From Tardiphaga sp. P9-11 (lineage in GTDB: Bacteria; Pseudomonadota; Alphaproteobacteria; Rhizobiales; Xanthobacteraceae): DNA of 64,000 nucleotides. Made by a program: the position numbers and the translations under genes. How positions within the stretch are numbered: the stretch's first letter is position 1; the number at the start of each line of letters is the position of its first letter. The notes beneath the pieces were generated by a model. That model was not told the DNA's origin. It was given only the letters and a program-made list of their open reading frames with translations, and did not search any database. Below, one piece after another: positions 82 through 38,497 of this stretch. The stretch is from positions 124,001-188,000 of the forward strand of contig NZ_NPKQ01000008.1 in assembly GCF_008329525.1 (NCBI RefSeq), given 5' to 3'.

Positions 82-1821
82 CTACCGTGGGGATGCTGCA
101 AGCACGTCGCACAAGGCGTTCGTCAGTCGCGCGCGCGCATCTGCATGCGTGAAATCGTGGTCAGCATTGGGGATGATCGAAATCGACGCGTTCGGATAGC
201 GGCGTAGCCGCGCGCCCTTTCGTCCCATATAGGTCTGGAATTCACCGAGCGCGTGATCTCCTTCCGAAACCAGCATCGCCAGGCGAACGTCACGATCTGC
301 GAGAGTTTGGAAACGGCGATGGCCTTCGCCATAGAGCTTCCGGCGTGCAAGGATTTGGCTCGGTCTCAACGAGAAGATTTGAAGCAGACGTTTGGAAACG
401 AAGGCGATCGGAGCCTTGAGACGCAAGTTGCCTGACAGCAGTCGTCTCAGGCTTCGCTTACTGAACAACAGCGATACGGAACCACCGATGGTTCGATGGG
501 CTGATTGGAGCGCCTCTGCAACAGTTTCCCGGGGATCCCAGACAAAACGCATATTGTTGATGACGACGACTGTGCGAACGCGCTCATCCTGCACAGCCGC
601 CTGGAATGAGGCGTAAGCACCGCTGCAGCGTCCGACGAGCGCGATCGGGCCGGCATCGAGCTTCGCAACATAATCGATCGCGTGACGCATGTCGGCAAGT
701 TGCTCGTCCGAGTAAAGTACTTCGGCTGGCGCGCCTGCCGAGGCCGGACTGTCGCCGATGCCGCCGGCGTCGAATCGGAACGAGGCGACCCCGCGCTCCG
801 CCAGGGCACGAGCCTGTTCGACGGCCGCGCGACCCCAGCCGATGTGATAGTCCCGCCCCGAATTAGCCAGAACCGCAATAGCTGCAGGCCTTCGACCGAG
901 CGGATGACACAGGATGCCGAACAACCGGTCGTCCGGCCCGAACCGAACCGGTAATTCTTCATAGTGAGGGCCGGCGATCGGCCGTGCAGGCGTGAGCTCC
1001 TTGGCAGACAATTTGACGCCTGTCATTGGAGCGGTCACGAGATCGTCGATCCATGACACGATGCGTGCCAGCGTGCCGAGCTGTGGTCCGGCCACAGTTG
1101 GGTTTTGCATGATCACTTCATAGCCCGCGTAGTCGATCGACGACACATCGGCTCCGAGCGTCTTCAGATGGTTGCCGAGCGAGCTGTCGCGAGACATCTG
1201 CGTGCGCTCAACCAGCAGGACTTGTGCGGCAGGACGCTGAGTGGCCTTGGTGAGATCGATCGCCTTGATGGCCGCGGCGCGGCTGCTTGCGAGTGAAAGA
1301 CCGGCGACGGTGTAGCCGCTGTGGTCCAAGGGATCGGGTCCGATCCCCATCCTCTCGGTCACCATACGTGACCAGGCTTGCGATTCACGAAGATAGGAAC
1401 GGCCCTTTACGGCCGGCGCCATCAGTACCGTCGCTGCGATGCCGGGACATTCCGGTCCGAGTTGAGCGGCCAGACTCGCGCCAACGCCTTGCCCGACCAG
1501 GACGAGTTCGGCGCCGGGATGGAGGTCTCGCAAAAACGCCATGCACTGACGCGCAGCAACGAGCCAGTCGGAGATGCCTTCAGGCTCGCCGGCGATATCT
1601 ATCGCATCTGCAGTGCCGGGATAATCGAACCTGAGGCAGGCATGGCCCGCCTGAGCAATCTTCTCGGCCAAAGCGCACCATGTGGCGCGGGTACACAACT
1701 CCTCGTATCCGATAGGCGATAGCAACAGCACGGCCTTGCGGGGGGGCCGGTCAATGCTGCCTGCGTGATAGAAGCCCCCGAACGTATCAAACGTGACCGG
1801 GACGCCATATCGAAAATTCAT
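82..1821 (-). CDS. Tandem alpha/beta hydrolase (two-domain)
   Basis: This 579-residue protein contains two alpha/beta-hydrolase folds in a row, about residues 5-260 and 290-575. In the second domain the nucleophile elbow reads GRCSG (397-401), which puts Cys399 where serine hydrolases have Ser, as in dienelactone hydrolases and exosortase-associated hydrolases; a late Asp (in SEGDH) and His (in NADHDF) could complete the triad. In the first domain the elbow reads GQGVG (110-114), so the nucleophile is missing and the domain is probably structural or substrate-binding. No signal peptide is visible. The gene is divergent from the carrier-protein operon 351 bp away. A thioesterase, transferase or hydrolase role on the carrier-protein product is inference; the exact substrate cannot be read from the sequence. 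Confidence 0.8.
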   Translation of the reverse strand: MNFRYGVPVTFDTFGGFYHAGSIDRPPRKAVLLLSPIGYEELCTRATWCALAEKIAQAGHACLRFDYPGTADAIDIAGEPEGISDWLVAARQCMAFLRDLHPGAELVLVGQGVGASLAAQLGPECPGIAATVLMAPAVKGRSYLRESQAWSRMVTERMGIGPDPLDHSGYTVAGLSLASSRAAAIKAIDLTKATQRPAAQVLLVERTQMSRDSSLGNHLKTLGADVSSIDYAGYEVIMQNPTVAGPQLGTLARIVSWIDDLVTAPMTGVKLSAKELTPARPIAGPHYEELPVRFGPDDRLFGILCHPLGRRPAAIAVLANSGRDYHIGWGRAAVEQARALAERGVASFRFDAGGIGDSPASAGAPAEVLYSDEQLADMRHAIDYVAKLDAGPIALVGRCSGAYASFQAAVQDERVRTVVVINNMRFVWDPRETVAEALQSAHRTIGGSVSLLFSKRSLRRLLSGNLRLKAPIAFVSKRLLQIFSLRPSQILARRKLYGEGHRRFQTLADRDVRLAMLVSEGDHALGEFQTYMGRKGARLRRYPNASISIIPNADHDFTHADARARLTNALCDVLAASPR

Positions 1822-2115
1822 GATCTGGAAACCATCATCGTTGAACCGGTTCGTTATATCCAGAAAAGCGGGCAGTTATCTGCCAAGTCATGGCCCCGTT
1901 GGAGTTTGATTTCGTAGCTGACGGTCGAGGAATGTGTCATGCGATATCGCGTTCCATCATTAATTACGTGTTCGGCTCGAATCGTATCCGGGTATTTAAC
2001 CGCTCGCTAACATCAATTTTGCAACCCATTGGGCTCTACACCGGAACGACCCATTGCATTCGATGCTGTTTACGACTCACGCGTCATTTATCTGATATCA
2101 CCCGACCAACTCTGA

Positions 2116-2145
2116 CGACGGCCGGTCGCTTTAAGGCGGCCGTCG
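2116..2145 (+). promoter_or_regulatory. Perfect 9-bp stem-loop in the leader of the carrier-protein operon
   Basis: CGACGGCCG at 2116-2124 is the exact reverse complement of CGGCCGTCG at 2137-2145, with a 12-base loop. The hairpin lies 16 bases before the Shine-Dalgarno GGAGG (2162-2166) of the carrier-protein gene at 2173. No T-run follows, so it is unlikely to be a simple intrinsic terminator. It could be an operator dyad or an RNA element. The rest of the 1822-2172 divergent region is AT-richer than its surroundings and should hold both promoters, but I could not assign -35/-10 boxes. Confidence 0.4.
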
Positions 2146-2172
2146 ATAATTCAACAGCTCTGGAGGAAATGA

Positions 2173-2418
2173 ATGCGTGATCGTGTGCGCGCCATTGTCG
2201 GATCGATGAACCTTCTTCCCGTTCCGGTCGATAGCTTGTCCGACCAGGACAGTCTGTTCGACGCCGGCATGACGTCGTTCGGTTCGGTCCAGCTGATGAT
2301 GGCGATTGAGGAAGAATTCGACATCGAATTCCCCAACAGCCTGCTGACGCGCAAGACATTCGCGACCCTTGACGGGTTGAATTCCGCGGTCGAGCAACTC
2401 GTCTCCCAGAAAGCCTGA
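2173..2418 (+). CDS. Acyl/aminoacyl carrier protein (partner of amino acid:CP ligase)
   Basis: An 81-residue carrier protein with four-helix-type spacing. The phosphopantetheine site is Ser35 in DAGMTSFGSVQLM (30-42); the usual Asp-Ser-Leu is changed to Thr-Ser-Phe, as in stand-alone carrier proteins rather than fatty-acid AcpP. Acidic helix II/III residues (EEEFDIEFP) are typical. The start is fixed by GGAGG six bases upstream of ATG 2173; an earlier ATG at 2169 reads into a stop after three codons. It is the first gene of an operon with only four bases to the next gene. Context says it is loaded by the ligase at 3628-4566. The presence of a phosphopantetheinyl transferase elsewhere in the genome is assumed. 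Confidence 0.9.
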   Translation: MRDRVRAIVGSMNLLPVPVDSLSDQDSLFDAGMTSFGSVQLMMAIEEEFDIEFPNSLLTRKTFATLDGLNSAVEQLVSQKA

Positions 2419-2422
2419 TGCG

Positions 2423-3631
2423 ATGGCCCCGACCGCGGTGAAGTCCGACGTCGACGTGCCCGAAGCTACGCCCTGGCGTGACGTGATGCGGCGGGTCGCC
2501 ACCGATATCGCTGCGCCGAACGCGGCTGTCGCAGACCAGACCGCGTCATTTCCGACGCGGACATTCGACGCCCTTCGCCACGACGGCATGCTGGGCCTGA
2601 TGGTGCCCAAAAGTCTTGGTGGTCAGGAGCTGGGATTGCGGAGCATCGCCGATCTCTGCGCGATTCTCGCCGGCGCCTGCGGTGCCAGCGGCATGATCTA
2701 CGCCATGCATCAGATCAAGCTGTCGAGCCTTGTCGCCCACGGCATGGACACCGACTATCATCGCGCCCTGATGCGCGATGTGGCGACGAAGCAGCTGCTG
2801 ATCGCGTCATCAACCACCGAAGCCGGCATCGGCGGCGACATGCGCGTCTCGAATTGCGCGATCGAAACTGCCGGCGACCGGGTGTCGCTGACCAAGCAGG
2901 CGACGGTGCTGTCCTACGCCACCGAAGCCGACATCATCATGGCGACGGCGCGCCGCAATCCGGCATCCGCCGGGTCCGACCAGGTGTTGATCGCGCTGCG
3001 GCGTGACGATTATCAACTCGAACGCATTGCCGAGTGGAACACGCTGGGCATGCGCGGCACCTGCTCCGAGGGCTTCGTGTTGACGGTAACGGCCGGCGCC
3101 GATCAGATCTTTCCGAAGCCGTTCCACGAGATCGCCGTGCAATCCATGCTGGCCACGGCGCATGTGCTGTGGGCCAGCGTCTGGTTTGGAATCGCGGCGG
3201 ATGCGCTGTCGCGCGCACATGCCTCGGTCCGGGCAACGGCGCGGCGCATGCCGTCCGATTTCGCCGGTCCGCTGCCGGGCGCGACGCGACTGGCCGAGGC
3301 CACGGCGAAACTGCAGACCTTTAAATCCACGCTCATCGCCCATATCGAGCGGTTCGAGGCGGCGAAGCGGGACGAAGACGATCTCAGTTCGAACAGCTTC
3401 ACGGTCGAAATGAACAATCTCAAGATCATGGCCTCGACCATGGCCGTCGACGTCGTGCGTGAAGCGCTGATGGTGACCGGCATCGCCGGCTATCGCAACG
3501 ACGGCGCGTTCTCGGTCGGCCGCCATCTCAGGGACGTGCTGTCCGCCCCGCTGATGGTGGCGAATGACCGTATTCTCGCCAACACCGCCGGTCTGGTGGT
3601 CGCGAGCCGATTTGATCCAGGTCTGGAGTGA
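2423..3631 (+). CDS. Acyl-CoA dehydrogenase-like flavoprotein
   Basis: 402 residues with the acyl-CoA dehydrogenase layout: N-terminal helical domain ([20 protein letters not shown] near residues 48-67), middle beta-domain ([13 protein letters not shown] around 130-143) and C-terminal helical bundle. The canonical C-terminal Tyr-Glu-Gly-Thr motif that supplies the catalytic base in medium-chain enzymes is absent; the region reads [11 protein letters not shown] instead, as in monooxygenase-like or non-canonical members. It follows the carrier protein by four bases and overlaps the ligase gene by four (GTGA), indicating translational coupling. The inferred role is oxidation of the amino- or acyl-thioester on the carrier protein rather than fatty-acid beta-oxidation. 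An FMN-dependent monooxygenase of the DszC type is an alternative. Confidence 0.8.
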
Positions 3632-4566
3632 GAGTGATGAACGTGCCCGCCAAAGCCGTGCAAAGCCCCGAAGCATTTCTGAACGCCCTGTTTGACGAGT
3701 CGATCCTGATCAAGACCGGCGTCGATGGTCTCTATGGCCGCGCCGGCGTGTTCGAGGAGGTCATCGACCGGTTCGAGAACGCGGTGACGAAAATTGCCGT
3801 CGGCGATCAGGCCACGCGCATTCATTTTCCGCCGGGCATGCCGCGCAAGAATCTCGAAAAGGCCGGTTACCTGAAGAGCTTTCCGCAGCTGGCCGGCTGC
3901 GTCCACTCCTTCATGGGCGACAATGCCGACCATATGAAGCTCGTCGGCATGATCGAGCGCGGCGAAGACTGGACCGAGATGCAGGATGCGACGGAAGTCG
4001 CGCTGACGCCGGCGGCCTGTTACCCGCTCTATCCCACCGTGGCCGCAGCGGGCCCGGTGCCGGACGACGGCCGGCTTTTCGATCTCAAGTCATACTGCTT
4101 CCGCCATGAGCCTTCGCAGGATCCCGGCCGCATGCAGCTATTTCGCATGCGCGAATTCGTCCGCATCGGCACCGCCGACGATGTGACCTCGTTCCGTGCC
4201 ACATGGCTGGAGCGTGGCGAACAGCTGATCAAGTCGCTGGGTCTGCCCTGCGTCATCGATTTGGCCAATGATCCGTTCTTCGGGCGCCCCGGCCGCATGC
4301 TGGCGTCGAACCAGCGCGAGCAAGGCCTGAAATTTGAATTGCTGATCCCCGTCGCAAGCGATGAAAATCCGACAGCGTGCCTGTCGTTCAACTATCACCA
4401 GAACCACTTCGGCAGCCTCTGGGGCATGAATTTCGCAAACGGCGAAGCCGCACATTCGGCCTGCGTCGGCTTCGGCCTGGAGCGGACGGCGCTCGCGCTA
4501 TTTCGTCACCACGGCACCAAGGTCGATGCCTGGCCCGACGATGTCCGCCGCGTGTTGTGGGGCTAG
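3628..4566 (+). CDS. Amino acid:[carrier protein] ligase (seryl-tRNA synthetase-like)
   Basis: 312 residues resembling the catalytic core of atypical class II seryl-tRNA synthetase without a tRNA-binding domain. Class II motif 2 is visible as [16 protein letters not shown] (155-170) and motif 3 as [12 protein letters not shown] (281-292). Cys131, Glu176 and Cys279 occupy the places of the zinc ligands that recognise the amino group in this family. Known B. japonicum homologues adenylate a small amino acid (mainly glycine) and transfer it to the phosphopantetheine of a cognate carrier protein, not to tRNA; here the carrier protein is two genes upstream. The start could be GTG 3628 (overlapping the preceding stop) or ATG 3637. 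Which amino acid is activated cannot be decided from sequence. Confidence 0.9.
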
Positions 4567-4569
4567 GCC

Positions 4570-5562
4570 TTGCCGACCGCTTGCGCCATCGACGGACTGG
4601 ATCCCGTAACCTATGCTCGGCACGGGCTGCATGATCTCGCGCGCAACTGGCCCGAGACCAACTGCTATGTCGATCTGTTGATTGAAGTGCTGGGCCAGCG
4701 AGGGCACGATCCCCGCGCCGCCCTGGCTTTCACGGTGGCGCAGGATTACGAGGGCGATCAGTTCACGTTCTTCAAGTTTCCGCCCGTCGATCTCGCGCTG
4801 CTCTACGGTGTCGAGATTCTGGAGCTCGCGATCTTCGATAGGCTGGAAGATCATGTTCGCGTGCAGTTGGCGCGTGGCCGCCTGCCGCTGATCGAGGTCG
4901 ATTCCCATTACCTGCCGGATACGCGCGGCATCACCTATCGCCAAAACCACTCCAAGACGACGATCGGCGTCAACGTGCTGGATTCGATTAATCGCCGGCT
5001 CGATTACTTTCACAATGCCGGCTACTTCCGTCTCGAAGGCGACGATTTCGACGCCCTGTTGCGGCCCCCGGGTGACGGCGGCTTGCCGCTGTTCCCCTAT
5101 GTCGAGTTCATCAAGTTCGGTCCCGCGCCGTCTGCGCACACGCAGTTGGAGACATCACGCACGCTGCTCGCGCAACATCTGCGCCGTCGTCCGCAGCAAA
5201 ATCCATTCACGGCATGGGGCGAGGTGATCGGCGCCGACATCGCACGGCTGATCGAACGGCCTCCCGAGTGGTTTCACACCTATGCTTTCAGCACATTGCG
5301 TCAGGCCGGCGCGAATTTTGAACTGCTTGCGAGCTATCTGGCCTGGCTGCAGGAGCAAGGCGAGCCGCAGCTGGAGCGCGCCCGGCTGGCCGCGGAGGCG
5401 ATTGCCGGCGGCGCCAAGGTGATGCAGTTTCAGTTCGCGCGCGCCTCGGCGCGCCGCAAGGTTCCTGACGTCGCCGATGCCATCCGCCAGCTCGCGACTG
5501 ACTACGACATCGTCCTCGATAGTCTCATGGACCGTTTCGCTTCATGCGGCGCTGCGGCATGA
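4570..5562 (+). CDS. DUF1839 family protein, proposed aminoacyl transferase
   Basis: 330 residues matching the DUF1839 family, which is usually found next to amino acid:CP ligases. Conserved-looking polar residues are Cys32 in ETNCYVDLL, Asp111-His113 in VDSHYLP and His127 in YRQNHSKTTIGV. This Cys ... Asp-x-(Tyr/His)-x-Leu-Pro ... His pattern resembles the papain-like fold of BtrH, the enzyme that transfers an aminoacyl group from a carrier protein to an aminoglycoside. That similarity is my inference from motif order, not a search result. The only plausible start is TTG 4570, three bases after the previous stop, so translation is probably coupled. Predicted cytoplasmic: no signal peptide or membrane segment. 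Confidence 0.75.
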   Translation: MPTACAIDGLDPVTYARHGLHDLARNWPETNCYVDLLIEVLGQRGHDPRAALAFTVAQDYEGDQFTFFKFPPVDLALLYGVEILELAIFDRLEDHVRVQLARGRLPLIEVDSHYLPDTRGITYRQNHSKTTIGVNVLDSINRRLDYFHNAGYFRLEGDDFDALLRPPGDGGLPLFPYVEFIKFGPAPSAHTQLETSRTLLAQHLRRRPQQNPFTAWGEVIGADIARLIERPPEWFHTYAFSTLRQAGANFELLASYLAWLQEQGEPQLERARLAAEAIAGGAKVMQFQFARASARRKVPDVADAIRQLATDYDIVLDSLMDRFASCGAAA

Positions 5563-5595
5563 TCGCCAGATGATATCATCGGCCTGTTCATCACC

Positions 5596-8055
5596 ATGAC
5601 CGACATCCGCGCCATGACGGGACGAAATGTTCAGCCGCTCGACTGCGGCTGGGAACTGGCACTGTCACTCCCTCAGGCGTGGCAAGAGCCTGGCGCGTTG
5701 AGCGAGGCCGTCTGGTTGCCCGCCATCGTCCCTGGAACGGCGGCAGGCGCGCTGCGCGCCCTGGGTCAGTGGAGTTTCGACGAGCCTCAGCCGCTGCACG
5801 ACAAAGACGTCTGGTACCGGGTCCGCATCCGAGGACAGGGCAAGCGCAAGCTGCGGTTTGAGGGGCTCGCGACGTCAGCTGAGGTTTTCCTCGACGACAC
5901 CCTCATCCTGACCAGCAGCTCGATGTTCGAGCCGTATGAGGCCGATATCGTTCTCGGCGGTGAGCATTGGGTCCATATCGCCTTCAGGAGCCTCCGCAGA
6001 GTGCTGGCGGAAACCAAAGGCCCACGGGCGCGCTGGAAGACCATGATGATCGAGGAGCCGCGCCTGCGGTTCCTGCGCACCACGCTGATCGGGCACATGC
6101 CGGGATGGTGTCCGCCAGTTGATGTGGTCGGGCCGTATCGTGCCGTGACGCTGATCGAGGAGGGCGCGGTCCACGCGTTCGACGTCGATCTGCGCACCCG
6201 GCTCGAAGGGACCGAAGGGGTGCTTACGGTCTCACTGGATCTGGTGGGCATTCCGGAGGGCGTGCGCCCGATTCTGCAATGCGCCGGCGCCGACGTGCCG
6301 TTGGTGCACGCCGGCGGCATGACGTGGCGCGGCGCGCTGCACGTCCCTGCGATGACGCCGTGGTGGCCGCACAGCCATGGCGCCCCGACGCTGCACGGCG
6401 TCGAAATTGTCATCGGCGACGTCCATATCGATCTCGGCGAGGTCGGTTTCCGCCGAATCGAGATCGATCGCGGCGCGGACGAGGGCGGCTTCACGCTGTA
6501 CGTCAACGGCGTCAGAATCTTCTGCCGCGGCGCCTGCTGGACTCCGATCGACGTCGTCAATCTGCAAGCGACAGATGCCGATTACGCCCGAAACCTCGGG
6601 CTGATGAAAAGCGCCGGCCTCAATATGGTTCGCCTCAGCGGCACCATGCTCTACGAAGCTCCCGAATTCCATCGCGCCTGCGACAGGCTCGGCATCATGG
6701 TCTGGCAGGACGTCATGATGGCCAATTTCGATTATCCGTCAGATCCGGCCTTCGCCGACGTCATCCGCGGCGAAGTCACGACGCTCATTCGCCGCTTGAG
6801 CGCATCGCCGTCACTGGTGGTCGTCTGCGGAGGCAGCGAAGTCGGCCAGCAGGCAGCGATGATGGGCCTGCCGCGCGAGATGCGCGACACACCGCTCGCA
6901 GATGTCGTTGTGCCAGAAATTGTTGCGCAATGGTCGGACGCCGCCTACGTGACCGGTTCGCCGTTGGGAGGAGCACTTCCGTTCGTGTCCGAAGCGGGGC
7001 CGTCGCACTACTACGGTGTCGGCGCCTACATGCGGCCACTCGCCGACGCACGCCGAGCCAATGTCCGCTTTGCGTCCGAATGCCTGGCTTTTGCCAACTT
7101 ACCGGACGATCGCCAATTTGCATCCTACCAACTTGATCCGAGCGCTGATCCGGTCCGTTGGCTGAGGCGTGTGCCCCGCGATGGCGGCGCATCCTGGGAT
7201 TTCGAGGACATCCGCGAGTATTATCTAACTTCGCTTTGGAATAGCGACGGCCGCAGCCTGCGCCACAGCGATCCCATGCGCTGGCGCCGATTGTCCCGAG
7301 CGGCCGTCGCCGAGGTGATCGAACGCACCATCGATGAATGGCGACGCCCCGCGTCCGCAACAGCGGGCGCACTGCTATGGCTGTGGCGCGACCTGTGGCC
7401 TGGTGCAGGCTGGGGTCTGGTGGATTCGGACGGGCGCCCCAAGTCTGCATTCTACGCCCTTCGGCGGGCTTCCTTGCCGTTGCGACTGTCCATCACCGAC
7501 GAGGGCACCAATGGGCTTTACCTACATCTCGTCAACGACACGCCGCACGCCGTCACCGGCAGGCTCACTTTGCGCTGCCTGAAAGACGGTGCGATATCGG
7601 TGATCGAAGCGGCACGTGACCTGACGGTCGCGGCCCATGCAGGGCTCTCCATCGGGGCGTTCGATCTGTTTGATCGCTTCTTCGACGCAGGCCACTGTTA
7701 TCGGTTTGGACCGGCCGCGCATGATGTGGTTCATGCGACGTTCGAGATGCCGACCGCGGGCCAGCCTGTCGAGGCTTTCCATTTTATTGGGATGCCCACG
7801 GTCGAAGCCAACAATGCGATCAACGCGGTGCTAGGCGAAGATCGCGGCGGCTTCTTCCTGGAACTGCAGACGGACACAACAGCGCGATTCGTCGAGATCG
7901 TGGACGACAACTTCGTGCCCGACGATAATTACTTCCATCTCGCGCCCGGACGCAAAAAAGTCGTTTGCTTCACACCGTCGCACCGAGCGGGACAGCACGT
8001 GCGCCCTGCAGGGCGGGTCGCGGTGCTTGGCGGAAACAGCGAAGCCAACTACTGA
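5596..8055 (+). CDS. Glycoside hydrolase family 2 (beta-mannosidase-like)
   Basis: 819 residues with GH2 organisation: N-terminal sugar-binding jelly roll (about 40-190, including VWYRVRI and LATSAEVFLDD), an immunoglobulin-like domain (about 195-290), a TIM barrel (about 300-620) and a C-terminal beta domain. The acid/base position reads CGGSEVGQQ with Glu415 kept, although the usual Asn-Glu pair is Ser-Glu; the nucleophile position is RFASEC with Glu495. Both catalytic Glu are therefore present. No signal peptide is seen, so it should act in the cytoplasm, which is unusual for a polysaccharide-degrading enzyme and suggests an intracellular glycoside or glycosyl transfer. It is the last gene of the operon, 33 bases after DUF1839. 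An alternative ATG lies at 5614. Confidence 0.75.
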   Translation: MTDIRAMTGRNVQPLDCGWELALSLPQAWQEPGALSEAVWLPAIVPGTAAGALRALGQWSFDEPQPLHDKDVWYRVRIRGQGKRKLRFEGLATSAEVFLDDTLILTSSSMFEPYEADIVLGGEHWVHIAFRSLRRVLAETKGPRARWKTMMIEEPRLRFLRTTLIGHMPGWCPPVDVVGPYRAVTLIEEGAVHAFDVDLRTRLEGTEGVLTVSLDLVGIPEGVRPILQCAGADVPLVHAGGMTWRGALHVPAMTPWWPHSHGAPTLHGVEIVIGDVHIDLGEVGFRRIEIDRGADEGGFTLYVNGVRIFCRGACWTPIDVVNLQATDADYARNLGLMKSAGLNMVRLSGTMLYEAPEFHRACDRLGIMVWQDVMMANFDYPSDPAFADVIRGEVTTLIRRLSASPSLVVVCGGSEVGQQAAMMGLPREMRDTPLADVVVPEIVAQWSDAAYVTGSPLGGALPFVSEAGPSHYYGVGAYMRPLADARRANVRFASECLAFANLPDDRQFASYQLDPSADPVRWLRRVPRDGGASWDFEDIREYYLTSLWNSDGRSLRHSDPMRWRRLSRAAVAEVIERTIDEWRRPASATAGALLWLWRDLWPGAGWGLVDSDGRPKSAFYALRRASLPLRLSITDEGTNGLYLHLVNDTPHAVTGRLTLRCLKDGAISVIEAARDLTVAAHAGLSIGAFDLFDRFFDAGHCYRFGPAAHDVVHATFEMPTAGQPVEAFHFIGMPTVEANNAINAVLGEDRGGFFLELQTDTTARFVEIVDDNFVPDDNYFHLAPGRKKVVCFTPSHRAGQHVRPAGRVAVLGGNSEANY

Positions 8056-8221
8056 ATAGATGATTGAGGGTGGGGGCGACACACCGCGCCACACCACCTT
8101 GGTTTGCTTTAGAGAGGCGATCATCACACGCGGATAATCTCGCTGATGCTTTGGCCAGTGATCAATCGAGTCCTTACGATCATTGCACGCATCTGGCGTC
8201 CGACGCCGGTGACGACATAAG

Positions 8222-8659
8222 TCGTGCTCGGCGTAGTGCGAGCCGCAGCGCACGAACGCTCAGTTCGGTCTCGATCTCGAAACCACCGGACAGCACCGGG
8301 AAGGATTTGACAAAGTATCTCGAGAATACGCGGTAGCCTGACAGCACATCTTTGAAGTTCTGACCGAACGTCATTGACAGAAAGCCGGTGAGCGGTGAGT
8401 TGCCGGTGCGGTAGCCAAGGCGATAGGCGGCAACCGTCTGCTCGATACGGCGGCCCGCGACCATGTCGAGGCGATCATTTAACAGCTGCGAATAATCGCA
8501 CACGCCTGCGAGGCTACTTCACCCGTGCGATCTGTCGAGTTGTTGTCGTAGACATAAATCGTGGCGGCGGGCAGCGCCCTGCGGAAATCGCTCACGACAG
8601 TTGTGACTGCGATCTCTTCATTGAAGCAGGGGATCAGGATAGAGACGCGGCGCGGTCAT
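8222..8659 (-). pseudogene. Family 2 glycosyltransferase, internally deleted
   Basis: On the minus strand, translation gives the GT2 start (VSILIPCFNEE, then YVYDNNSTDRTGEVA), then a stop near 8485, and then in another frame the distal part of the same family (LNDRLDMVAGRRIEQTVAAY, FKDVLSGYRVFSR, GFEIETELSVRAL). The middle of the enzyme, which should hold the nucleotide-sugar aspartates (VDGDATYD-type motif), is gone, and the C-terminus loses similarity before 8222. The intact relatives are dolichyl-phosphate-mannose-synthase-like enzymes of about 300-400 residues. This is a decayed copy with a deletion of roughly 80-100 codons plus frameshifts. Confidence 0.75.
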
Positions 8660-12718: not shown

Positions 12719-12936
12719 GACGTGCCCCTGCCGATTTCCTCCAGTTGAAGTTAGAGTCCGGCCTTCTGAAGGACGGACAGATGAAGCGGGCCAGATTTAC
12801 GGAAGAGCAGATTATCGGCGTTTTGCGCGAGCATGAGGCGCGAGCGAAGGCCGCCGATCTGGCGCGCAAACACGGCGTCTCGGAAGCAACGTTGTATAAT
12901 TGGAAGGCCAAATTCGGCGGCATAAGCCGCCCTTGA
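12719..12936 (+). mobile_element. IS3-family remnant: left end and truncated orfA
   Basis: From ATG 12781 the reading frame MKRARFTEEQIIGVLREHEA...HGVSEATLYNWKAKFGG is the helix-turn-helix start of IS3-family OrfA (IS407-type). It stops after about 52 codons at 12936, where the intact protein would continue with a leucine zipper. The sequence from 12719 (TGACGTGCCCCTGCCGATTT) has the TGAC start and CCCC run of a left inverted repeat. OrfB and the right end are missing. An ATG at 12745 in the same frame reads through IS end sequence and is unlikely to be the start. Confidence 0.8.
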
Positions 12937-37702: not shown

Positions 37703-38497
37703 TCATACGGCTTCGATCGAGCGCCGATATTGCTCGATCACGTCTCCGATATCGCCATATGCCTTGATCCGACCCTGGTCCATCCACAGCCCTTTGTTGC
37801 ACCAGCGCTGACAGATCTCAATATTATGCGAAGCTAGCACCAGAACGCTGGCGCGATCGACGAACGATGTCAGTCGCTTTTCGGCTTTTGCCATAAATGA
37901 CTCGTCACCGGCCACGATCCATTCATCCATTAATAGGATTTCTGGCTCGAAGCACGTTGCGACAGCGAAAGTCAACCTGAGGATCATGCCGGACGAATAG
38001 GTCCGCACCGGCATTTCGAGGTACTCGCCGAGTTCTGTGAAATGCGCAATGTCAGCCATGCGCTTGTCGATTTCCGAGTTTGAAAGACCTAGTATCATTG
38101 CACGAATGCGAATGTTGTCGTAGCCGCTAAGATCGGTGTCGATTCCAAGCCCGATATCGAACATCGGCGAGATGCGTCCCCGGATGATGGCATCGCCGGT
38201 CGTGGGTTCATAGATTCCAGCCATGACGCGAAGAAGCGTTGTCTTGCCGGCGCCGTTCGCCCCGATCAGGGCTACGCGATCACCGGTGGCAAGTGACAGC
38301 GAAATATCTCGCAGAGCTTGAACGGTGATGCGGTGGTTGCCGTCATGTGCCAACCGGCCGGCGGATCCTTTAAACAGAAGGCTCTTCTTCAGCGAGCGCG
38401 AACCGCCATGGTAGATCGGAAACGACACGTTGACGTGCCGAACTTCGAGCACGGTTTCACGAGTAGAAAATGCTTGTGCGACCGACATGCCGTTCAT
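37703..38497 (-). CDS. wzt: Polysaccharide/O-antigen ABC exporter, ATPase
   Basis: 264 residues. Walker A is GANGAGKTT, the signature is RTYSSGMILRL and Walker B is EILLMDEWI, followed by the switch His in LASHN. FDIGLGIDTDLSGYDNI is a stretch typical of polysaccharide exporters. The protein stops soon after the nucleotide-binding domain, so it lacks the C-terminal carbohydrate-binding domain found in E. coli O9a Wzt and resembles KpsT-like exporters instead. It overlaps the permease gene by four bases. It should energise export of a lipid-linked glycan across the inner membrane. Confidence 0.92.
   Translation of the reverse strand: MNGMSVAQAFSTRETVLEVRHVNVSFPIYHGGSRSLKKSLLFKGSAGRLAHDGNHRITVQALRDISLSLATGDRVALIGANGAGKTTLLRVMAGIYEPTTGDAIIRGRISPMFDIGLGIDTDLSGYDNIRIRAMILGLSNSEIDKRMADIAHFTELGEYLEMPVRTYSSGMILRLTFAVATCFEPEILLMDEWIVAGDESFMAKAEKRLTSFVDRASVLVLASHNIEICQRWCNKGLWMDQGRIKAYGDIGDVIEQYRRSIEAV

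Follow-up and report, generated by a model that had tools for sequence, protein, structure and literature searches.

A conserved six-gene cassette of Tardiphaga and its relatives, proposed to join amino acids to sugars through a carrier protein

What a bacterium does with an amino acid that a relative of the aminoacyl-tRNA synthetases (aaRS) has placed on a carrier protein (CP) appears to be still an open question, and no answer on the physiological job of these amino acid:CP ligases was found in the literature searched. The question is raised again by a stretch of 64,000 nucleotides from Tardiphaga sp. P9-11 (contig NZ_NPKQ01000008.1, positions 124,001 to 188,000; hereafter the window), in which a ligase of this kind belongs to a cassette at positions 82 to 8055. 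The six genes of the cassette encode a CP, a flavoprotein with the acyl-CoA dehydrogenase (ACAD) fold, the ligase, a DUF1839 protein, a glycoside hydrolase of family 2 (GH2) and a tandem alpha/beta hydrolase (HYD2x), and they form a conserved unit. The reading that we favour, with a probability of about 0.58, is that they constitute a CP-dependent pathway joining an amino acid to a sugar. The genes, their linkage, the conservation of the active sites and the DUF1839 fold were established computationally.

All six open reading frames (ORFs) of the cluster described in the first-pass annotation of the window are present, and profile searches assign each to the family named there. Five of them run on the plus strand in the order CP (2173-2418, 81 amino acids), flavoprotein (2423-3631, 402 amino acids), ligase (3628-4566, 312 amino acids), DUF1839 (4570-5562, 330 amino acids) and GH2 (5596-8055, 819 amino acids), with successive gaps of 4, -4, 3 and 33 bases, the start of the ligase ORF overlapping the end of the flavoprotein ORF by 4 bases. 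HYD2x (82-1821, minus strand, 579 amino acids) diverges from the other five genes and is separated from the CP gene by an intergenic region of 351 bases (1822-2172). The CP is a PP-binding protein that matches NF005480 at 93.9 bits (cut-off 72), DUF1839 matches PF08893 at 396.7 bits, and GH2 is a beta-mannosidase-like protein with the domains PF22666 and PF17753. The genome of the strain (6.16 Mb, 30 contigs) has one DUF1839 and one NF005479-type ligase. Among the matches listed, the named loci that come closest are from Tardiphaga and Bradyrhizobium and are 85-87% identical in DUF1839.

The association of these genes was followed across genomes by taking DUF1839 as the anchor, which was present in 5/385 genomes sampled from the class, 16/398 from the phylum and 2/61 from the strain's own family, giving a union of 20 genomes including its own. 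The ligase adjoins DUF1839 in all 20 of them; GH2 is likewise present in 20/20 and directly adjoins DUF1839 in 19, and HYD2x is present in 20/20. In one genome (G186; L and G numbers are our handles for loci and genomes) the cassette is split, with CP, flavoprotein, ligase and DUF1839 on one contig and the GH2-HYD2x pair together on another. These results support the earlier idea that the cassette is one functional unit, since the ligase, GH2 and HYD2x accompany DUF1839 in every sampled genome. It had also been stated that this idea would fail if GH2, DUF1839 and the hydrolase rarely accompanied the ligase; within the DUF1839 branch the opposite was found (20/20), whereas outside it the co-occurrence breaks down. 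The ligase model NF005479 matches 19/385 genomes of the class, 10 of them above its cut-off, and in the small control of genomes with an above-cut-off ligase and no DUF1839, GH2 occurs in 0/5 and HYD2x in 2/5, one of these being partial. A CP-like gene, flavoprotein and ligase stand together without DUF1839 at L030 and L034, as do a flavoprotein and ligase at L035; at L034 and L035 these genes lie, as judged by eye, near apparent homocysteine/methionine synthesis genes, and this DUF1839-less branch may have another job. At the level of loci, relatives of DUF1839 were found in at least 583 stretches, and the best 80, a set leaning to close kin, contain GH2 in every case, the flavoprotein and the ligase in 79 cases each, the CP in 78 and HYD2x in 66, two of these loci (L062 and L070) being cut by contig ends.

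A candidate chemistry for the unit is suggested by the fold of DUF1839. An AlphaFold model built from 31 sequences (pLDDT 90.0, pTM 0.90) was compared with the PDB by Foldseek, and all 16 matches at E<=0.001 were AziU2/U3 (3), CtaG (8) or CcbD (5), in alignments that span 320-359 columns for the 330 residues of DUF1839 with TM-scores of 0.52-0.64; the next match beyond these 16 has an E value of 0.059. In the formation of aziridines, AziU2/U3 works on an amino acid attached to a carrier. According to PMC12945683, CcbD and LmbD combine CP-tethered proline and an amino-containing thiooctose into an amide by way of a Cys thioester, and PMC6772006 proposes CtaG as a peptidyl transferase between CPs. 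A survey that places DUF1839 among papain-like proteins gives it a Cys-(Thr/Ser)-His triad and suggests acyl-CoA-dependent glycan processing (PMC10318531); a text search of the survey found none of the names CcbD, CtaG and AziU3. Based on the model, DUF1839 is predicted to be a CP-dependent papain-like aminoacyltransferase working through C32 and H148. The literature searched, a coverage that left most subscription papers outside, yielded no experiment on DUF1839; the name DUF1839 appeared there in PMC10318531 alone, and Atu2574, a gene discussed below, in PMC2922099 alone.

The conservation of the putative active site was followed in the window and in the ORFs above the length limit from 100 loci, near-identical relatives being counted singly; ORFs that were too short had been dropped from these and the following counts (1 HYD2x, 0 CP, 2 flavoprotein, 1 ligase, 0 DUF1839 and 5 GH2). 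H127 and H148 of DUF1839 are invariant (103/103 rows each) and C32 is kept in 100/103. In the other three rows, which are the operon copies at L143, L145 and L148, C32 is replaced (by R, R and Q), and in each case another DUF1839 gene retains the Cys; at L175, too, the operon copy has R and the second copy C at site 32. Hence in 4/4 resolved two-copy cases (L143, L145/L146, L148 and L175) the operon copy lacks C32 and the other one has it, a count from which L176 and L177, which also have two DUF1839 places, were left out. This pattern suggests that DUF1839 function needs C32, and that loss of the Cys from one of two copies can give rise to a Cys-less partner; it might be speculated, by analogy, that a Cys-less and an active DUF1839 form a pair resembling that of AziU2/U3.

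The upstream part of the pathway is indicated by the ligase and the CP. The ligase matches NF005479 at 481.2 bits (curated cut-off 357) and is a relative of the class II seryl-tRNA synthetases of the Bll0957 kind, its profile matches in the PDB being restricted to Bll0957 and type-2/archaeal seryl-tRNA synthetases. Bll0957 reportedly was described as an amino acid:CP ligase by Mocibob in 2010. The cassette ligases share three residues, C131, E176 and C279, in 97/97 rows, a Cys-Glu-Cys set that we take to be the zinc site. According to PMC9437257, ligases of this kind are dimeric, depend on zinc and no longer carry a domain for tRNA binding. Bll0957 shares its ligase family with the cassette and has solved structures (3mey and 4h2w-y), and PMC10888616 lists an acyl-CoA dehydrogenase gene, bll0958, as its neighbour. 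In motif 3 the cassette ligases have E285 (97/97), whereas D stands there in Bll0957 and in the ligase of G361, taken as Bll0957-type, whose genome lacks DUF1839, GH2 and HYD2x, unlike the cassette genomes. A tree of 51 ligase sequences places the cassette ligases in one clade with a node support of 0.298, too low to carry weight. In the CP, S35 is kept in 97/97 rows, and by family this residue would be the phosphopantetheine serine; in the CP of the window it lies in a motif, placed by eye, that reads TSF instead of DSL.

For the flavoprotein, the ACAD-like description of the first-pass annotation was right about the fold, while the usual acyl-CoA dehydrogenase catalytic glutamate is missing at both known sites. 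The positions that we take to be those of the MCAD-type (379) and IVD-type (246) catalytic Glu, placed by eye through the alignment with 7p98, hold I/V in 96/97 rows with one gap and S/A/C/T in 97/97, respectively. Among the PDB profile matches, the nitrososynthases DnmZ, KijD3 (3m9v, 4kcf) and 3mxl account for 4/16 rows at E<=1e-15, and dehydrogenases are found as well. HMMER alignments reveal a motif, W-[DN]-x-[LM]-G-M-R, common to the flavoprotein, DnmZ and KijD3 (W-D-G-[LM]-G-M-R in the latter two), with W205 of the flavoprotein kept in 97/97 rows and D or N at residue 206; the motif is offered as a suggestion for a defining mark of the group D flavin monooxygenase/nitrososynthase group. 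In the structural comparison by Foldseek the five top matches are dehydrogenases, with DszC sixth and DnmZ fifteenth at similar TM-scores. The reading we favour is that the flavoprotein probably works on the aminoacyl group as a monooxygenase or an oxidase.

The involvement of a sugar is pointed to by GH2, whose nearest structures are the beta-mannosidases 5n6u and 2je8. E415 at the acid/base site and E495 at the nucleophile site, aligned with the GNNE and SE of 2je8, are each conserved in 95/95 rows. Immediately ahead of the acid/base Glu stands Ser in 94/95 rows and Asn in 1/95, and because Ser replaces the Asn of 2je8, a changed recognition near C2 of the sugar is suggested. No signal peptide was seen on GH2 by inspection by eye, with no predictor run, and the enzyme is apparently cytosolic.

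HYD2x resembles two hydrolases associated with exosortase A (models TIGR03098-03101 cover the genes of that association), its N-terminal half hydrolase 2 and its C-terminal half hydrolase 1, fused in that order, and scores below the cut-offs of both models (91.6 vs 168.45 for hydrolase 1 and 37.2 vs 202.75 for hydrolase 2). The C-terminal domain has a Cys elbow, with C399 and H555 in 79/79 rows each and D522 in 76/79; the N-terminal domain has no nucleophile, there being no Ser or Cys at its elbow and G or R at residue 112 in 79/79 rows. The hydrolase-1 genes of exosortase-associated loci (six above the cut-off and one just below it) encode a GxCD elbow in 7/7 cases. At two exosortase-type loci hydrolase 2 precedes hydrolase 1, as in HYD2x, and the pair has in its vicinity a small ORF that by eye is carrier-like, together with an AMP ligase or a pyridoxal phosphate-dependent decarboxylase. 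Membership in an exosortase A system was considered and rejected, since no exosortase gene (PF09721) was matched in the strain's own genome.

A connection of HYD2x with glycan export is seen in part of the loci. HYD2x is fused to a flippase in 16/80 loci, which together with L154 makes 17 ORFs, in Rhizobium; the flippase was identified at L078 (PF13440, 48.2 bits vs a cut-off of 23) and in the other fusions by similarity to L078. A separate flippase adjoins HYD2x in 7/80 further loci, so that it is fused or adjoining in 23/80, and members of four glycosyltransferase families are found in 34/80. The ORF stretches that precede HYD2x at L102 and L143 match no Pfam family, and neither does that at L108, which lies outside the flippase frame.

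From these elements a route of five steps can be proposed. By family, the ligase would activate a small amino acid with ATP and attach it to the CP through the phosphopantetheine that S35 carries. The flavoprotein would then oxidise or mono-oxygenate the CP-bound aminoacyl group, a step we place here because of the absence of the usual dehydrogenase base, the features shared with nitrososynthases and the gene order. C32 of DUF1839 would next take over the aminoacyl group and transfer it to an amine, for which an amino sugar is the likeliest candidate, forming an amide as CcbD does; the fold and the Cys behind this step were computed, and its acceptor we infer. GH2 may trim, release or rearrange the glycoside, and HYD2x, because of its flippase fusions and exosortase-type relatives, is placed late, where it might act on a lipid-linked saccharide as an esterase, a thioesterase or a second transferase. 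The product would probably be an aminoacylated surface oligosaccharide. An aminoacylated or N-containing glycoside had been proposed in the first-pass annotation; the aminoacylated sugar is its best reading and gains support from the DUF1839 fold, while the glycoside is something we infer.

Several observations weigh against this pathway. The DUF1839 model deviates from AziU2/U3, CtaG and CcbD by root-mean-square values of 5.1-7.2 A, and sequence searches of the PDB with E values up to 10 returned no CcbD, CtaG or AziU3 chain. In the alignment used, the MCAD-type Glu site is occupied by Thr in 7p98 (cyclohex-1-ene-1-carboxyl-CoA dehydrogenase) and, because this is a true dehydrogenase, the loss of that Glu is compatible with dehydrogenase activity. 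The reported triads also differ, being Cys-Thr/Ser-His for DUF1839 (PMC10318531) and Cys-His-Glu for CcbD. The roles given to GH2 and HYD2x come from context, and no acceptor-sugar gene common to the cassette loci was identified. The glycan link is regional, not universal, because 46/80 loci are devoid of any of the flippase and glycosyltransferase families tested, and in the window the matches to these families are weak. In Roseibium denhamense (L107) the cassette is present in a genome, of unstated completeness, with no ligase match. To these points must be added 4/12 plasmid or large-replicon records, all from Rhizobium, in which DUF1839 lacks an intact partner set.

Altogether 59 such records have a match, and 12 were opened. 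In 8/12 the genes from CP to GH2 are in order, namely in Azospirillum (L139 and L176), Mycetohabitans (L140), Caballeronia (L141, where HYD2x was not found within 12 kb), Cupriavidus (L143 and L175) and Rhizobium (L155 and L156). In the four incomplete Rhizobium records, DUF1839 is found alone and adjoining transfer genes (L142), is kept beside a fragmented ligase and GH2 (L157), is kept with a GH2 truncated next to a transposase gene (L158), or has next to it only fragments of the ligase and GH2 (L177), and C32, H127 and H148 are intact in all four. It seems that on these plasmids either the gene set is decaying or DUF1839 is retained for itself; the partnership is therefore not absolute.

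Among the other explanations, a doubtful though possible one is that the cassette makes a soluble small-molecule glycoside, such as a lincosamide- or butirosin-like metabolite or signal, from which GH2 would remove a protecting sugar and which HYD2x would release. The apparent lack of a signal peptide on GH2, the antibiotic pathways in which the fold relatives of DUF1839 work, and the loci of Agrobacterium (L092) and Caballeronia (L141), where no adjoining glycan genes are seen by eye or in the annotation, would all suit it; against it stand the flippase fused to or adjoining HYD2x at 23/80 loci, compared with 19/80 at most for each recurring exporter- or regulator-like neighbour family (by eye), and the kinship of HYD2x with hydrolases of exosortase polysaccharide systems. 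We consider it unlikely, but worth setting out, that in a route widespread among proteobacteria the aaRS-like ligase charges the CP, an ACAD-fold oxygenase, as opposed to a dehydrogenase, N-oxidises the amino acid there, and DUF1839 as a CcbD-like Cys enzyme links it to a lipid-carried amino sugar that is then flipped; perhaps a pair of Cys-less and active DUF1839 of the Cupriavidus type would take part, and the nif-adjoining cassettes that some rhizobia have on symbiotic-type plasmids may mark the surface of the symbiont. The N-oxygenase route is made less likely by 7p98, a dehydrogenase that is also devoid of the MCAD-type Glu.

It is improbable that DUF1839 is instead a thioesterase or an AziU3-like rearranging enzyme in a pathway yielding a modified free amino acid. 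Its top Foldseek match is indeed AziU2/U3, whose substrate is a carrier-bound amino acid. The triad given in PMC10318531 is, moreover, non-standard. However, CcbD and CtaG, described as transacylases, are matched at similar TM-scores, and GH2, a partner at 80/80 loci and in 20/20 genomes, needs a sugar in the pathway. Very improbable, finally, is the view that the flavoprotein is an ordinary dehydrogenase and that ligase, CP and flavoprotein make up a catabolic route for an amino acid, the other genes being mere neighbours. The sets without DUF1839 at L030, L034 and L035, the sulfur amino acid genes near the latter two, the five dehydrogenases heading the Foldseek matches of the flavoprotein and the missing MCAD-type Glu of 7p98 speak for such a route, whereas the presence of DUF1839 with GH2 and HYD2x in 20/20 sampled genomes and the non-acidic residues at both Glu sites (I/V in 96/97 rows with one gap, S/A/C/T in 97/97) speak against it.

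The favoured pathway, an amino acid joined to a sugar through a CP, has a precedent. In 2010 a note in proof pointed out that the genes for the ligase, an acyl carrier protein and a redox enzyme keep company with an uncharacterised ORF (Atu2574), a glycosidase gene and genes for liposaccharides; it predicted that an amino acid becomes linked as an amide to an amino sugar of the cell surface, the aminoacyl part being monooxygenated (PMC2922099). The cassette shares with it the ligase, acyl carrier protein, redox enzyme, tightly linked ORF, glycosidase and proposed amide, and the gene order in Agrobacterium loci would make Atu2574 a DUF1839 protein. The earlier view of the cassette as a candidate undescribed system is consequently not supported, as neighbourhood and likely chemistry had already been predicted (PMC2922099). 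The present results agree with that prediction, which was based on neighbourhood; the note in proof neither assigns a fold to the ORF nor mentions a tandem Cys hydrolase or a fusion with a flippase. What is added here is the fold of DUF1839, the co-occurrence at genome level with its split case, the dissection of HYD2x, the flippase fusion and the Cys-less copies. The lincosamide condensation by LmbD and CcbD is a second parallel, as it likewise uses a CP-bound amino acid, a Cys transacylase of similar fold (by Foldseek) and an amino sugar acceptor. It differs in activating the amino acid by an adenylation domain, where the cassette uses a relative of the aaRS; the two also differ in their taxa, in the triad and with respect to GH2 and the hydrolase, and no sequence similarity was found. 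Considering DUF1839 as a CcbD-like transacylase supplies a concrete enzyme, an active-site residue and an acceptor class, which makes the prediction directly testable. If it is true, many rhizobia and Burkholderiales would share a way of linking amino acids and sugars that needs no classical peptide synthetase and that could be used in glycan biology and biocatalysis.

Around the cassette, the window holds a surface-polysaccharide locus (18984-44071) with glycosyltransferases, DegT aminotransferases and GDP-mannose dehydratase-like genes, inside which an ABC transporter ATPase lies at 37703-38497. These polysaccharide genes at 18-44 kb were considered as members of the cassette and rejected; they are taken as incidental because the glycosyltransferases of the window match the cassette-linked families weakly and the neighbours of the cassette differ in other genomes. 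A short ORF at 8180-8503 (minus strand) with a partial, sub-cut-off match to the glycosyltransferase model TIGR04182 (45 bits) is probably a remnant, and another at 12745-12936 seems to be left over from a mobile element, as by eye it resembles the beginning of a transposase of the IS3 type. The G+C content is 0.53-0.55 around 10-20 kb of the window and 0.59-0.64 across the cassette. Control by sigma-54/NifA was also considered, through a motif scan of the 400 bases 5' of the CP gene in the window, 96 loci and a further four loci on plasmids (101 sequences in all), and rejected, as four of the 101 scored >=8/10 against a shuffle mean of about 6.9. No TGT-N10-ACA site was found upstream in the window, L156 or L157, nor any convincing sigma-54 site in the 351 bases of the window, and at L156 and L157 the upstream region likewise gave no sigma-54 site.

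Other surroundings are found elsewhere. In R. denhamense (L107, 4862-20286) the genes on the flanks of the cassette encode glycosyltransferases, a flippase and a protein resembling a methyltransferase. On the R. gallicum plasmid pRgalR602b (L156) and a plasmid of Rhizobium sp. C104 (L157), both typed as conjugative, it lies between nifE-nifN-nifX and an ACC deaminase gene, and a role in symbiosis is possible for these nif-adjoining cassettes. By annotation, efp, epmA and a lysine-2,3-aminomutase-like gene directly precede the cassette at L155 (1-3880), and similar ORF families are seen by eye in up to 35/80 loci, many of them from Rhizobiaceae (L043-L122). On a plasmid of Rhizobium leguminosarum (L177, 19141-28945), the annotation places a large gene for a non-ribosomal peptide synthetase downstream of what is left of the cassette.

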